From Fibrobacter sp. UWB5 (GTDB lineage Bacteria; Fibrobacterota; Fibrobacteria; Fibrobacterales; Fibrobacteraceae), in contig NZ_MWQH01000001.1 in NCBI RefSeq assembly GCF_002210295.1, forward strand, positions 930,001 through 994,000: a stretch of DNA of 64,000 bases, read 5' to 3'. The notes beneath the pieces were generated by a model. That model did not search any database. It was not told the DNA's origin and was given only the letters and a program-made list of their open reading frames with translations. The position numbers were made by a program, and so were the translations under genes. This document shows positions 23,140 through 29,524 of this stretch, in pieces. Within the stretch, counting starts at the first letter, position 1; every line of letters starts with the position of its first letter.

Positions 23140-25887
23140 TTACTTCAACTCTTTAAGAGCTGCTTCGTTCTTCGCGATAATGTCCTGCTGCGTAGCGAGC
23201 TTGGTGCGTTCGGCGTTCACCACTGCTTCGGGGGCGCCGCTCACGAATTTTTCGTTCGAGAGCTTGCGTTCGATGCTGGCGGCGAATGATTTGGCCTTCT
23301 CGATTTCCTTTTCGAGGCGGGCGATTTCTGCAGCCGGGTCGAGGATACCTTCGAGCGGAATGTAGAGTTCGCCACCGGGCACCACGGCGCTGGCGCTGAA
23401 CTTCGGCTTGGCGGCCTTCACGGCGACGCTCAGGTCAGAAAGACCCGAAAGTTCGGTGATGATTGCCATGCAGTCCTTCACGCTTGCTTCTGTTGCGGCA
23501 TCGTCGACGCTCACCACGGCGTTCAGCTTGGTAGCGGGGCTCACGTTGTAGCGGCCACGCACGCCACGCACGCTTTCCACCACGGCGAATGCCTGGTCGA
23601 ATGCGGCTTCAATCTTGGCGTCAATGAGCGATTCGTCGGCCTTGGGCCATGCGCGGCTGATCACCATTTCGCTGCCTTGGAACAGGATGCTGTTGAGTTC
23701 TTCGGTAATGAACGGCATCACCGGGTGGAGCAGGTCGAGCACGTTCTTCAGCACGTAGCTGAGGATGGCCATGGCGTTCTTCTTTTCGGCGGTGAGCGTT
23801 TCGCTGTTGATCACGGACTTCTTAATCTCGAGATAGCTGGAGCAGACGTCGTCCCACACGAAGCGGTACAGGAACCCGGCGAGTTCGGCGAAGTGGTATT
23901 CTTCGAGCATGCGGGTGGCGTCCTTGATGGTCGTCTGCAGGCGGCTCAAAATCCACTTGTCTTCCAGGGCGAACAAGCTCTTGTCCATCGGGAGTTCGGC
24001 GGCAAGCGCGCCGGCCTGTTCGAGCTGCGGGTAAAGGAAGCGGCAGGCGTTCCACAGCTTGTTGCTGAAGTTACGGCCGATTTCGAACTTTTCGCTGGTG
24101 TTGATTTCGCGGCCATCCGGCTGCTTTTCCTTCTTCACCGGCAGGCGCACGTCCTGGTTGTCGGTGCAGAGGCTAGCCATCACAAAGCGCAGAGCGTCGG
24201 TACCGTACTTCTCTTCGATATCCATCGGGTCCACGCCGTTGCCCTTGGACTTGCTCATAGTCTGGCCATTGCCGTCCAGAATCTTCGGGTGGATATAGAC
24301 CGTGTGGAACGGAACCGTGCCCATGTTTTCCTGGCTGAAGAGCACCATGCGGGCGACCCACAGCGTAATGATGTCGCGGCTTGTCACGAGCACGCTGGTG
24401 GGGTAGTAGCGCTTGAGCGTGTCGGTGTTTTCCGGCCAGCCCATGGTAGAATGCGGCCAGAGTCCACTGGAGAACCACGTGTCGAGCACGTCTTCTTCCT
24501 GCTTGAGTTCGTGACCCGGAACGGCGTCTTCCTTGAGGTCTTCTTCCTGGCTGCACACGAGGTAGCCGCCGTTTTCGGCCTTGTAGAAGTAGATGTCGTC
24601 GCGGCCCGCGAATGCGGCCTTCAGTTCGTCTTCGCTAGCATCGGTGTGCCAGATAGGAATGCGGTGGCCCCACCAGAGCTGACGGCTGATGCACCAGTCG
24701 CGCTTTTCAGCAAGCCAGTCCAGATACTTGTTGGCGTAGCGTTCCGGGATAATCTTGATTTCGCCCGACTTCACGGCGTTCATTGCGTTTTCGGCGAGCA
24801 CGTCCATCTTCACGAACCACTGGTCGCTGAGGTACGGCTCGATCACAGTCTTGGAACGGTCGGAGTGGCCCACGTCCATTTCGTGGTCTTCCACCTTGAT
24901 CAAAAGTCCGAGTTCTTCGAGACCTGCCACCACGGCGTCGCGTGCGGCCTGGCCCTTGAGTCCCTGGAACTTGCCGGCGTTCTCGTTCAGGCTGCCGTCA
25001 TCGTTCATGATGTTGATCATCGGGAGCTTGTGGCGCAGACCCGTCGCATAGTCGTTCGGGTCATGAGCCGGAGTCACCTTCACGGAACCCGTACCGAAGT
25101 CCTTGTCCACCAAGATAGCGTCGGCAATCACCGGGATTTCGCGGTCAACGAACGGCACCTTCAGCATCTTGCCGATGAACTGTGCATAGCGTTCGTCGTT
25201 CGGGTGCACGGCGAGGGCGGTATCGCCCATGATCGTTTCCGGACGTGTGGTCGAAACGGGGATAAATCCCGAACCGTCGGCCAGGGGGTACTTGAACGTC
25301 CAGAAGTGGCCCTTCACGTGTTCGTAGTAGATTTCGTCGTCGGCAACGGCGGTCTGGAGCTTGGTATCCCAGTTCACTAGGCGCTTGCCGCGGTAAATGA
25401 GGCCCTTCTTGAACAGGTTGAAGAAGGCGTGGCGCACGGCCTTTGCGCAAACCGGGTCCAGCGTAAAGCGCTGGCGGCTCCAGTCGCAGCTAACGCCCAG
25501 GCTCTTGAGCTGCTTCGTAATGCGGGCTTCGTATTCGTCCTTCCACTTCCAAATGCGTTCCACCAGGGCGTCGCGGCCAATGTCGTGGCGGGTCTTGTGT
25601 TCGTCCTGGAAAAGGCGCTTTTCGACCACGGCCTGCGTGGCGATACCCGCGTGGTCCGTACCCGGAATCCACAGCGTGTCGCGGCCGGTCTTACGGCGGT
25701 AGCGTACCAAAATGTCCTGGAGCGTATCGTTGAGCGCGTGTCCCAGATGGAGCGCGCCGGTAACGTTCGGGGGCGGAATCACGACCGAGAACGGTTCGCC
25801 CTTTCCGCTGGGTGCAAAACTGTTATTCTCAGCCCAGGTCTTATGCCATCGGGCTTCCACATCTTTAGAATTGTAACGAGTTTCCAT
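23140..25887 (-). CDS. valS: Valyl-tRNA synthetase
   Basis: 915 residues, class I synthetase. The HIGH-type motif PPPNVTGALHLGHAL is near residue 40, with IPGTDHAGIATQ downstream. The editing domain is in the second quarter. RDIITLWVARM and the KMSKS-type motif TMSKSKGNGVDP come near residue 545. The C-terminus has anticodon-binding and Val-tRNA arm coiled-coil regions (AEIARLEKEIEKAKSFAASIERKL). Length and order are standard. Start ATG 25887 lacks an SD; TAAATTTG (25896-25903, minus strand) is eight bases upstream. Confidence 0.97.
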   Translation of the reverse strand: METRYNSKDVEARWHKTWAENNSFAPSGKGEPFSVVIPPPNVTGALHLGHALNDTLQDILVRYRRKTGRDTLWIPGTDHAGIATQAVVEKRLFQDEHKTRHDIGRDALVERIWKWKDEYEARITKQLKSLGVSCDWSRQRFTLDPVCAKAVRHAFFNLFKKGLIYRGKRLVNWDTKLQTAVADDEIYYEHVKGHFWTFKYPLADGSGFIPVSTTRPETIMGDTALAVHPNDERYAQFIGKMLKVPFVDREIPVIADAILVDKDFGTGSVKVTPAHDPNDYATGLRHKLPMINIMNDDGSLNENAGKFQGLKGQAARDAVVAGLEELGLLIKVEDHEMDVGHSDRSKTVIEPYLSDQWFVKMDVLAENAMNAVKSGEIKIIPERYANKYLDWLAEKRDWCISRQLWWGHRIPIWHTDASEDELKAAFAGRDDIYFYKAENGGYLVCSQEEDLKEDAVPGHELKQEEDVLDTWFSSGLWPHSTMGWPENTDTLKRYYPTSVLVTSRDIITLWVARMVLFSQENMGTVPFHTVYIHPKILDGNGQTMSKSKGNGVDPMDIEEKYGTDALRFVMASLCTDNQDVRLPVKKEKQPDGREINTSEKFEIGRNFSNKLWNACRFLYPQLEQAGALAAELPMDKSLFALEDKWILSRLQTTIKDATRMLEEYHFAELAGFLYRFVWDDVCSSYLEIKKSVINSETLTAEKKNAMAILSYVLKNVLDLLHPVMPFITEELNSILFQGSEMVISRAWPKADESLIDAKIEAAFDQAFAVVESVRGVRGRYNVSPATKLNAVVSVDDAATEASVKDCMAIITELSGLSDLSVAVKAAKPKFSASAVVPGGELYIPLEGILDPAAEIARLEKEIEKAKSFAASIERKLSNEKFVSGAPEAVVNAERTKLATQQDIIAKNEAALKELK

Positions 25888-25895
25888 AGTGCGGG

Positions 25896-25903
25896 CAAAT
25901 TTA
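25896..25903 (-). promoter_or_regulatory. TAAATTTG promoter element of valS
   Basis: Exact TAnnTTTG match on the minus strand, eight bases before the valS ATG (leaderless type). Confidence 0.5.
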
Positions 25904-25935
25904 GAAATTCTCACGCATTATGGCAAAAAGGATTA

Positions 25936-26033: not shown

Positions 26034-29000
26034 TTACATCTCATCCAATTTCTGCATCAACTTGTGGGTTTCGAGAAGGATGGCGATGATCTTGCGGTAA
26101 TGCGAGATGTCGTCGTATGTAAGGGTGCGGTTTTTGCGGTCCTTGAGCCACTTTTGGGCGGGTTGGTAGCCACCAATGTAGAAGTTCCAGGCTAGTTCAG
26201 AAACATTCGCAAAATACTGCGTCTTGTTGATGTAGACCTTACCGTAGTTGTCATTCCCGGCTTGACCGGAAATATCCTTTTTATACTTAATATCCGTTAC
26301 GGCATTGTTACCATCGATATCGAAGGAGGTTTCCTGCGGAGGAATTTCTTCCATCAGGTGCAATTTGCGAAGTTTATTGCCGATGGAAACGGTGCGTTCA
26401 AATTCTTCCTTGTTTTCGGGATAAGGAATACGTGGGAAATCGATTTTCAGAAATTCCCTATATTTTTCGCGATAGGACGGAGTATGGAGTACTCCATAGA
26501 TATAATCGAAGATTTGCTCCGGAGATAATTGGCATCCTACAAGTTTTTCAATTTTTTTCAAAATCTTTCCATCTAGATTAGGGTTACGCGATTCTCCAAG
26601 AGAAAATTCCTCTTCTGTTGGATATAGATACAGAGGAAAAACATAATCATTATCTTTAGGAGACAATAACGTTTGATCTACAGGTTTGTTAGCCAGGAAA
26701 TATGTTGACGCATAATCTCTATTTATACGGACAAGGCATAAACAAATATTGTCCTTTTCAAAATGTTGAAATATGTCGTATCTCGGATAAGCAATAAACC
26801 CCTTTGTTTTCTTAGAATAGTAGGTATATCGTTCATCAAACAATCTATAAAGAACCTTTTGAACGTTCCCATTTTTTTCAAGCACATCTTTCTTAGCCGA
26901 CTCAACGGTCCAATCGCGTCCATCTTTTAGTTTATATTTTTTCCGTATCGAATCAACATCCATTCTTTCCATATCGGAAAGTACCGCGCAGACGTCCTTC
27001 TCATTGAAATGAATTGTTAACGAATCACGTTTCGTTTGAAAACCAGACACAAATTTTTTCATCAACTCATCAATTTTAAAACCCTTATCATATTTTTCTA
27101 TCTCTGAAAAATCTTTCGGGACAAAGAAGTAATACGGGTCAAATGGTTTAAGTTCCTGCCAGGGAACATCCTTTAACGAGTGAGTTTGAAGGTAACGGTA
27201 TTTTTCTGGACGTTTGCCAAAGAGTTCATAGTGATAAACTTTGGCTAGGGATTCTTCTGTTCCAGAACTACAACCCTTTTTCACAAAAATATTAATGCTT
27301 ACGCCTTGCATGATATCAAAAACATTTTCATCTTTGTCCCCATCAGGTGTAGTTTCTTGTTTTCGAGTATCACCATGCAAATTCAGAATATATATATCGT
27401 CAAATATTTTCATTAAAGAATGACGCATTTTTCGATGAGTGATACCATCGACAAAACTGTTATTTGAGATATAGGCAACAATTCCTTCCCCATTTTTTTC
27501 TACATAATAGTGAGCCAAACGTATAAATTTAATATAGTCATCATTTAGATTTATCTTCTTCTCGTTCAATCCCTTTTTATACTCTTTCAAGAGATTTGTT
27601 ATCCAGGTTCCCTTGTTACTACTACTTGCACTATAAGGCGGGTTTCCTATCATCACCATTACTGGAGTATCGCGTTTGACAATATTCGCCTCATTTGCTT
27701 CTTGTGCCAACCATTGCGCAAACAGTGTACCTGTATCGTGACCGCATTCTTCAAGGGAATTAGTAAGGAATACGCGAAGTCGCTTGTCCTGTTTTGCCTT
27801 GTAGCCAGTCTGCGCCAATACCATGTCCAATTTCAAATGAGCAACGGCGTATGGAGCCATCATGAATTCAAAACCATTCAGGCGCGGCACCAGATGTTCT
27901 TCCACATAGTTTTGCCAAGCGCCCTTCTGGTTTTCCATGCCGGAATATATCTTGCGGACCACTTCGGCAAGGAATGTTCCCGTTCCAGTTGCAGGATCAA
28001 GAATTTGAACTTTATGGTACTCGCGCGTTTCGTATTTCTTGTGGTCTTTGGTACGATTATCCGTATATAGGTTCGAAGTCTGCCGAACCGTCACCTTGCT
28101 CGTGTCGGCAAGCCCATCACTCAAATTGAAGCGGGATTTCAAAATTTCGTCAACGGCATTGACGATAAAGTGGACAACGGGTTCTGGCGTGTAGTAAACA
28201 CCACAGGCTTTTTTCTGCTTGGGGTCGTAATAGCGTAGAAAATGTTCGTAGAAGTGAATCATGGGGTCGGCTTGACCCGTGGTCTTTCCAAAATTCTTCA
28301 TGACCTTCGGCATATCCGTCACTCGGAAAGTTTCCGCAAGATCATCAACAATCCACGCAATGCTTGTATCTACATCGAATGCGGCGACATTTTGGAAAAC
28401 CTTGCGCAAGAACGGATTTGTCTTGGGAATGAGTATTGCCGCTTCTTCCCGACTAAATGTGTCGGGAGTGTCATCATGGAGCCTTGCCGCAAACATTCCA
28501 TATACAATAGTTTGTGCATAGATGTCAGCAAAGGCTCGTTCCGTCAAATCGTGAATTAAATGGTCTTTGAAAGCAGCCCATTGTCCCTTCAAATCTCCGG
28601 ACTTTTCGTTACCGGCATCAAGAGTCTTTTCAATAACTTCGGCGAGGAGGCGCGCCTTGGCGGCCATCATCTGCGCCAATTTTGTAGAACTTGTAATCTT
28701 CTGCGGCATTGATTCCGCGAGGTGTTCCACCATTTCCAAAAACATCGGAACATTGGCGCCTATTAGCGCAATCTTATTTCCTCTGATTTCTGCGATACAA
28801 ATGCTATTGACAAATTCGCCATTTTCATAAAGATGGAAATCAAGGTAATCCGTGAAAAGGATATGGTCCAGCGATTTTTTGTATCGATTAAATTGCGCCT
28901 TGTGCTGGCGGTTACCATCCAGGTCGCTATCACCGATGTCCTTTGCCTCTACGAACGCAACTGGAATTGATGTTGCACCATTCCCTTTTGCAATAATATA

Positions 29001-29189
29001 GTCCGGCGCTCCGCATTCTATCCGACTCGGCTCATTTGTAATGGTAAATTTGGGGAGCAAATCGCCAAGCAGTTTTGCAAGTGCCGGGCGGTAACTGTGT
29101 TCGGTCGCCTTGCCCGTAGAAAATTGCTTGGAAACCTCGTCGATGTACTGTGCGACGGCTTGAATCTTGCTTTTGTCCAAATCGGCCAT
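26034..29189 (-). CDS. Single-chain type IIG/IIL-like restriction-modification enzyme
   Basis: 1051 residues. The N-terminal nuclease has a PD-(D/E)xK pattern: APDYI at 61-65 and FVEAK at 79-83 (Asp63, Glu81, Lys83). A helical linker follows, then the adenine-N6 methyltransferase: YYTPEPVV (332-339), SAM motif DPATGTGTF (398-406) and catalytic NPPY (516-519). The last 450 residues look like a target-recognition region and are more AT-rich than the N-terminal half, as expected for a swapped specificity module. No helicase motifs are present, unlike type I or ISP enzymes, and no separate specificity gene is nearby. It should cut unmethylated foreign DNA and methylate the host. GGAG lies before ATG 29189 but is masked by a hairpin. 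Confidence 0.87.
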   Translation of the reverse strand: MADLDKSKIQAVAQYIDEVSKQFSTGKATEHSYRPALAKLLGDLLPKFTITNEPSRIECGAPDYIIAKGNGATSIPVAFVEAKDIGDSDLDGNRQHKAQFNRYKKSLDHILFTDYLDFHLYENGEFVNSICIAEIRGNKIALIGANVPMFLEMVEHLAESMPQKITSSTKLAQMMAAKARLLAEVIEKTLDAGNEKSGDLKGQWAAFKDHLIHDLTERAFADIYAQTIVYGMFAARLHDDTPDTFSREEAAILIPKTNPFLRKVFQNVAAFDVDTSIAWIVDDLAETFRVTDMPKVMKNFGKTTGQADPMIHFYEHFLRYYDPKQKKACGVYYTPEPVVHFIVNAVDEILKSRFNLSDGLADTSKVTVRQTSNLYTDNRTKDHKKYETREYHKVQILDPATGTGTFLAEVVRKIYSGMENQKGAWQNYVEEHLVPRLNGFEFMMAPYAVAHLKLDMVLAQTGYKAKQDKRLRVFLTNSLEECGHDTGTLFAQWLAQEANEANIVKRDTPVMVMIGNPPYSASSSNKGTWITNLLKEYKKGLNEKKINLNDDYIKFIRLAHYYVEKNGEGIVAYISNNSFVDGITHRKMRHSLMKIFDDIYILNLHGDTRKQETTPDGDKDENVFDIMQGVSINIFVKKGCSSGTEESLAKVYHYELFGKRPEKYRYLQTHSLKDVPWQELKPFDPYYFFVPKDFSEIEKYDKGFKIDELMKKFVSGFQTKRDSLTIHFNEKDVCAVLSDMERMDVDSIRKKYKLKDGRDWTVESAKKDVLEKNGNVQKVLYRLFDERYTYYSKKTKGFIAYPRYDIFQHFEKDNICLCLVRINRDYASTYFLANKPVDQTLLSPKDNDYVFPLYLYPTEEEFSLGESRNPNLDGKILKKIEKLVGCQLSPEQIFDYIYGVLHTPSYREKYREFLKIDFPRIPYPENKEEFERTVSIGNKLRKLHLMEEIPPQETSFDIDGNNAVTDIKYKKDISGQAGNDNYGKVYINKTQYFANVSELAWNFYIGGYQPAQKWLKDRKNRTLTYDDISHYRKIIAILLETHKLMQKLDEM

Positions 29190-29191
29190 GG

Positions 29192-29214
29192 CGGCTCCAA
29201 TGTTGCGAGAGCCG
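29192..29214 (-). promoter_or_regulatory. SD-masking hairpin before the R-M start
   Basis: In the minus-strand mRNA, CGGCTC (29214-29209) pairs with GAGCCG (29197-29192) across an 11-nt loop. The SD GGAG (29198-29195) lies in the second arm, two bases from the AUG. This would lower translation of the enzyme. Confidence 0.5.
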
Positions 29215-29243
29215 TTCCTTGTTGCGCCTCGATTTCCACAAAT

Positions 29244-29387
29244 AAAAAAGGCGTGGAGTCGTAGGCTTACCGCTATCGAGGGCTACCACACCCTGTTGCA
29301 TAATAAGCACAAACGACCCACGCCCCGATTGGGACGTGAGCGTTCGTCTTATCCTCATGCAACTTGAAAGTGGTAGTTTCGATAGCG
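29244..29387 (-). ncRNA. Structured leader RNA or small RNA upstream of the R-M gene
   Basis: Minus-strand transcript. A 117-nt rod (29387 to 29271) is built from arms, given in plus coordinates: 29379-29387/29271-29279 (9 bp), 29370-29376/29283-29289 (7), 29357-29363/29295-29301 (7), 29348-29352/29303-29307 (5), 29344-29347/29313-29316 (4), and an apical 29331-29338/29319-29326 (8 bp, AAUC loop). The mispairs become G-U wobbles only on the minus strand. After the rod, 29262-29250 followed by U6 can pair with 29324-29313 instead, forming a terminator that excludes the apical part of the rod. Either an attenuator of the R-M gene or a free RNA. No known RNA family recognised. Confidence 0.6.
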
Positions 29388-29524
29388 AGAATAAGAGACG
29401 AATCTCAAAAATTCCGGTCGCTCCGAACCATTCGGTACGGGGCTATGTCAACTGCAATATAGATTATTGGAATGGCGAAAGATGACTTTTGGTCATTTTG
29501 TGGATAAAAATAGCCAAATATTGC

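Follow-up and report, generated by a model that had tools for sequence, protein, structure and literature searches.

Among the systems closest to the RNA described here are the classical trp-type attenuators, in which four leader segments form either A:B together with a C:D terminator, or the B:C antiterminator that this combination excludes. The Fibrobacter RNA has the same arrangement, the same position in the leader and a U-tract, but differs in that no conserved leader peptide was seen, that a 40-bp rod, whose variable helices covary, is its antiterminator, and that dozens of unrelated genes share a single leader type. Expression of restriction-modification (R-M) genes is also regulated in systems that rely on C proteins or antisense RNA (EcoRI, EcoVIII, and others). 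In contrast, the Fibrobacter element is based on RNA structure and is common to type I, II, IIG, ISP, and III systems, and no C-protein gene was seen with it. RfaH, UpxY, and LoaP work via leader elements on several accessory operons (for LoaP, PMC12691694).

The window analysed here is a 64,000-nt stretch of Fibrobacter sp. UWB5 (contig NZ_MWQH01000001.1, positions 930,001 to 994,000), and one copy of the RNA family lies on its minus strand at 29461-29244. We consider it highly probable that this element is a cis-acting, bistable transcription-attenuator leader of ~205 nt, which would act in Fibrobacter as plug-in control of R-M and further defence genes, and whose long variant would do the same for Fib_succ_major surface genes. 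The element extends beyond the interval of the original prediction, with a start near 29449 (GACATAG) and a -10-like TATATT at 29461-29456. The features of the locus are as follows:

29456..29461, minus strand: promoter -10-like box TATATT (T frequencies across 116 copies; sequence)
29443..29449, minus strand: GACATAG, conserved leader start and probable transcription start (G before ACATAG in 94% of 116 ACATAG-bearing copies)
29420..29443, minus strand: P1 hairpin GCCCCGTACCGAATGGTTCGGAGC, variable and missing from some subclasses (alignments)
29387..29402, minus strand: segment A, UUCGUCUCUUAUUCUC, partner of B in the OFF state, with hairpin P2 (GAGA UUCG UCUC) also formed by part of it (OFF-structure helices 1-2; earliest stable fold of the growing chain)
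29381..29386, minus strand: a5', 5' strand of variable rod helix a, partner 29272-29277 (compensatory changes in every pair)
29366..29380, minus strand: h1 hairpin GAAA-CUACCAC-UUUC, its loop b5' complementary to b3' (OFF helix 3, rod helix 3)
29357..29363, minus strand: c5', 5' strand of variable rod helix c, partner 29295-29301 (both-side changes in 7/7 pairs)
29342..29356, minus strand: segment B, GAGGAUAAGACGAAC, partner of A (OFF) or C (ON) (both covarying structures)
29331..29341, minus strand: 5' strand of the rod's apical arm, GCUCACGUCCC (98% paired, rod helix 6)
29302..29324, minus strand: segment C, GGCGUGGGUCGUUUGUGCUUAUU, apical rod strand when ON and 5' strand of the terminator when OFF (rod helix 6, OFF helices 4-5)
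29295..29301, minus strand: c3', 3' strand of helix c (rod covariation)
29280..29293, minus strand: h2 hairpin GGGU-GUGGUA-GCCC, its loop b3' complementary to the h1 loop (OFF helices 6-7)
29272..29277, minus strand: a3', 3' strand of helix a (rod covariation)
29250..29269, minus strand: segment D, UAAGCCUACGACUCCACGCC, 3' strand of the terminator stem (98.7-99% paired with C, double changes in 9/16 pairs)
29244..29249, minus strand: U6 tract, predicted OFF-state termination site (T in 96-100% of 121 copies, five columns)
29192..29214, minus strand: SD-covering hairpin GGCTC..GAGCC (29213-29193), a feature of ISP-type genes outside the RNA family
26034..29189, minus strand: type ISP / IIG single-chain restriction-modification gene, 1051 aa (Pfam Type_ISP_C 2.1e-83, N6_Mtase; PADLOC REase_MTase_IIG 6.8e-300)

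Folding minus-strand 29400-29187 gave the rod of ~40 pairs that had been proposed upstream of the R-M gene, at -94.2 kcal/mol compared with -60.2 +/- 4.1 kcal/mol for 200 dinucleotide shuffles (z = -8.2), none of which reached the stability of the native fold. The proposed competition of a 12-nt segment and U6 for the apical rod strand was also confirmed: CGACTCCACGCC (29261-29250), followed by T6 (29249-29244), is complementary to GGCGTGGGTCG (29324-29314) in the rod's apical arm, the 12-nt segment being placed at 29261-29250. A third proposed part, the hairpin masking the SD, is present at 29213-29193, but does not belong to the RNA element, given that in the alignment only copies before type ISP genes have it. 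The type ISP / IIG gene is inferred to be the cargo regulated by the window copy, without expression data. A valyl-tRNA synthetase-like gene (23140-25914) lies on the same strand 120 bp downstream of the R-M gene (26034-29189), and read-through of the switched operon could therefore reach it.

Both structures were counted on an alignment of 121 distinct copies, which runs from 24 nt before the model start through the U-tract; the covariance model was built on 34 copies, with 21 of 44 predicted pairs compensatory. Across the alignment, 91.5% of cells in the rod were paired, both-side changes occurred in 25 of 41 pairs, and the covariation score was 0.458, compared with at most 0.092 when the rod was slid. 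The rod stood above 500/500 shuffles for cells paired, double-change cells, and score, and above all but 7 for pairs with double changes. The OFF alternative comprises a 14-pair 5' helix (A:B), hairpins h1 and h2, and the terminator C:D (11 + 5 pairs), a 16-bp stem that ends in U6. It was 94.2% paired, with double changes in 21/38 pairs, and was reached by 0/500 shuffles on any of the five measures. We note that these shuffle numbers are not probabilities, because the copies are related. The two terminator helices were 98.7% and 99.0% paired and had double changes in 9 of their 16 pairs (e.g., GUCG/CGAC to GUUG/CAAC and GCCG/CGGY). Changes of this type fall on a base that the rod leaves bulged and so provide independent support for the terminator; CUUAU/GUAAG to CUUGU/GCAAG is a further example of covariation. 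The covariation in homologous leaders whose absence would have refuted the original prediction is hence abundant for both structures. What is expected of an attenuator, namely mutually exclusive terminator and antiterminator pairings that are each conserved, and a U-tract directly after the terminator stem and upstream of a same-strand gene, was observed here. An A:D lock, in which the 5' flank would join the terminator strand, pairs in most copies but has almost no double changes, and we do not claim it.

We propose a mechanism in which termination in vivo, the default state, the physiological role, and the trigger are all inferred, as there are no transcript, 3'-end or reporter data. In the growing RNA, segment A is predicted to pair with B while hairpin h1 forms. 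Segment C would then displace A from B, and the long rod would assemble through helices a, b, and c, a step that the complementary h1 and h2 loops could nucleate. In the ON state, C would be unable to pair with D because it is held by B and the apical arm, and polymerase would read through. In the OFF state, A:B would persist and C:D would form a GC-rich terminator stem beside U6, with transcription stopping before the gene. The choice between the two states may be made by a trans-acting RNA-binding protein or by elongation kinetics, which we infer to be more likely than a metabolite.

A riboswitch that binds a metabolite (e.g., SAM, nucleotide) could control defence genes via the same terminator, and known transcription-terminating riboswitches do resemble the Fibrobacter RNA in their leader position, bistable terminator/antiterminator, and multi-copy regulon, as well as in the tandem second copy that the long class carries before type II R-M genes. 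However, the conserved, largely unpaired aptamer core by which a riboswitch would be recognised was not found among the 77 columns that are conserved at 90% or more in the 121 copies. Pairing explains 69 of these (35 in the OFF state alone, 17 in the rod alone, 17 in both), and the other 8 belong to the U-tract (5) or the P2 hairpin. This pattern argues for an RNA that rearranges, and with 69 of 77 conserved columns paired in either structure, no classical ligand pocket is evident from the alignment. The cargo genes also lack a common metabolic theme, the regulon being one of defence and surface rather than a single metabolic pathway. Nor was there a match in Rfam 15, either for the window at the gathering threshold or for the elements at loci L030, L033, L235, and L239 at E <= 0.5. 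We regard a metabolite riboswitch as quite unlikely.

Minimum-free-energy folds of the growing window leader gave A:B with h1 at chain lengths of 100-150 nt, and the rod once 160 nt was reached. In the window copy, the rod (-72.3 kcal/mol) was favoured over the OFF state (-58.1 kcal/mol) by ~14 kcal/mol, and over 121 copies the mean rod advantage was 5.5 +/- 10.3 kcal/mol, the h1/h2 loop-loop pairing being uncounted in both estimates. It is possible that the OFF state needs a helper, since the rod is the more stable in the window copy. As the rod is favoured at full length in these models, read-through may be the default unless something stabilises A:B, which remains an inference. The terminator loop is ~50 nt long; the element was not called by a simple terminator scan, and a simple promoter scan did not recognise it. 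The high stability of the rod, together with loop sequences common to the copies that could pair in trans, would also suit a leader that is mainly a stable or processed RNA, terminated or cut by RNase III and acting in trans (e.g., on other leaders via the h1/h2 loops), with read-through secondary. This seems unlikely to us, because every copy lies close to its downstream gene and in the same orientation, which points to action in cis, and because helices a and c covary within each copy.

The surroundings of the copies bear further on the attenuator. Relative to ACATAG, T was found at -9 and -8 in 93% and 91% of 116 copies and at -18 in 81%, with A/T-rich sequence between. This conserved -10-like box is the only promoter evidence upstream of the leader, and there are no transcription start data. 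The nearest downstream ORF (at least 100 aa) was on the element's strand in 127/127 distinct copies, at a median gap of 62 nt (112 copies within 150 nt), whereas the nearest upstream ORF was random in strand (56 same, 66 opposite). If the element were instead a mobile DNA repeat (MITE, REP-like, or integron-like recombination site) by which defence cassettes spread, with a hairpin formed in DNA, its orientation would be independent of flanking genes, which is not what the 127 copies show. The U-tract, the promoter-like box, and the G-U-tolerant covariation confined to one strand likewise speak against it, and the element was not found in phage and plasmid collections; in viral contigs, an exact 22-mer had no match and a degenerate pattern matched one contig without the element. 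A repeat would nevertheless account for a multi-copy imperfect palindrome with many copies within defence clusters, sometimes two in tandem, and recombination between copies is indicated by 11 leader pairs that are at least 93% identical yet lie ahead of unrelated genes. We hold such a repeat to be very improbable. The window leader itself is 99.4% identical to the leader of an MmeI-type gene. Judged by these near-identical leaders before unrelated genes, the leader recombines as a module, which suggests a modular switch acquired by new defence genes.

DNA-methyltransferase (MTase) or R-M operons were led by 94 of the 138 copies that have a downstream gene (about two thirds). This count is based on representative-annotated clusters and an NPPY-type motif, and the sample of downstream genes is biased toward high-scoring copies. 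The operons include type I hsdM, type III mod, ISP/IIG, MmeI, EcoRI-type, D12 and C5 MTases, and helicase-MTase, and the restriction-modification types led are I, II, IIG, ISP, and III. Other genes led are TPR-MazG-Schlafen operons, EndoU pairs, a DUF4417 operon, a NERD nuclease, giant Ig-domain proteins, and unknowns; in about one third of copies the downstream gene is non-defence or of unknown function. Conversely, 36 of 100 PF02384/PF01555 domain hits in 16 genomes had a same-strand element within 6 kb upstream (~0.6% expected), nearly all within 1.3 kb of the MTase domain hit. It can be inferred, in the absence of expression data, that the element controls a large minority of such genes but not all. 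The proposal of an attenuator or RNA switch is thus supported at the level of sequence by covariation of both structures, the invariant U-tract, the promoter-like box, and strict orientation over more than 120 copies. The RNA is not confined to this one enzyme, the leader being common to many unrelated defence and surface genes.

Several gene arrangements recurred around the elements. A three-gene operon (DUF4417-like 224 aa, 139 aa, and 118 aa) is itself led by an element and lies just before a second element that leads variable R-M genes (L030, L036, L038, L046, L049, L081, L094, and L101). It was considered as the regulator and rejected, as it is element-led and has no RNA-binding family. 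After several different R-M or defence operons (L030, L043, L046, L081, L083, L086, L092, and L113) there is an opposite-strand ORF of 445 aa, a possible marker of a hotspot at which defence cassettes are exchanged. Ahead of an EndoU-type nuclease with a 121-aa partner (L091, L128, L162, and L164), the element is divergent and lacks the usual A/B sequence.

Long elements of 190-220 nt accounted for ~47 of 115 in 16 genomes, with the extra sequence inserted in the apical loop, and the best pairing of their C with their D strands was between strands of that same class. In subclass L-A (C strand GGCGTGAGTTG, D strand CAACTCCACGCC), the cargo consists of type II R-M operons, including a Tsp45I-type enzyme and its MTase, a C5 MTase with AAA_5, and an MTase with GmrSD/HNH. 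Behind L-A comes a second, related half-rod (5'/3'), to which several copies before type II R-M genes add a strong intrinsic terminator (GGCGAGGAG..CTCCCCGCC-TTTCTTTTT), so that two attenuators would stand in tandem. One such tandem L-A is in the window's own genome (L033:8226 region, G000:C5:39227-39447). Tandem L-A was recorded at L033, L235-L253, L258, L270, and L271. Subclass L-B was located ahead of Fib_succ_major (PF09603) surface proteins in 8 of 10 loci tested, a placement that, without expression data, links surface variation to the same RNA switch. The L-B loci with Fib_succ_major are L239, L242, L254, L257, L260, L262, L263, and L266. At L239:4010-4060, downstream of the Fib_succ_major gene, there is an Rfam match to DUF3800-XI RNA (41.4 bits).

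With blastn, the element was found in 36 of 61 genomes, all Fibrobacter and usually in several copies. The covariance model extended this to 79 of 80 Fibrobacter genomes, including all 40 of good quality, at 1-18 copies each, and to nine genomes from three other genera of the same family. Weak matches were obtained in two other families, one in G106 (58 bits) and three in G053 (33-35 bits). The three G053 matches (L178, L180, and L182) lie in a different family of the phylum and could represent a remote branch of this RNA family. Elements on contigs labelled as Bacteroidales and archaeon MAGs (L199, L229) are probably mis-binned Fibrobacter. The RNA is undescribed in the literature that we searched, which did not cover subscription journals and supplements.

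It is possible, although we offer this only tentatively, that one RNA device gives Fibrobacteraceae genome-wide control of immunity and surface, in which a single trans signal would flip many copies together and turn on defence and surface genes. A phage-responsive RNA-binding protein could be such a signal, as could altered transcription speed. A common leader element before several accessory operons is also what RfaH/ops, UpxY, and LoaP act through, and a NusG paralogue of that kind could recognise the leader hairpin and provide processive antitermination for long operons. However, each of 8 genomes had a single NusG-domain gene, with no second NusG-domain protein found in any of them, and the Fibrobacter element differs in having a dedicated terminator built in. 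On this evidence from 8 genomes we rejected the explanation, to which we would give hardly any chance. The proposed attenuator family bears on the open question of how many horizontally acquired bacterial defence systems can be placed under common control. Here, a single RNA family absent from Rfam stands before type I, II, IIG, ISP, and III restriction systems and further conflict genes in almost all Fibrobacter genomes, and co-ordinated regulation of immunity by RNA becomes directly testable.
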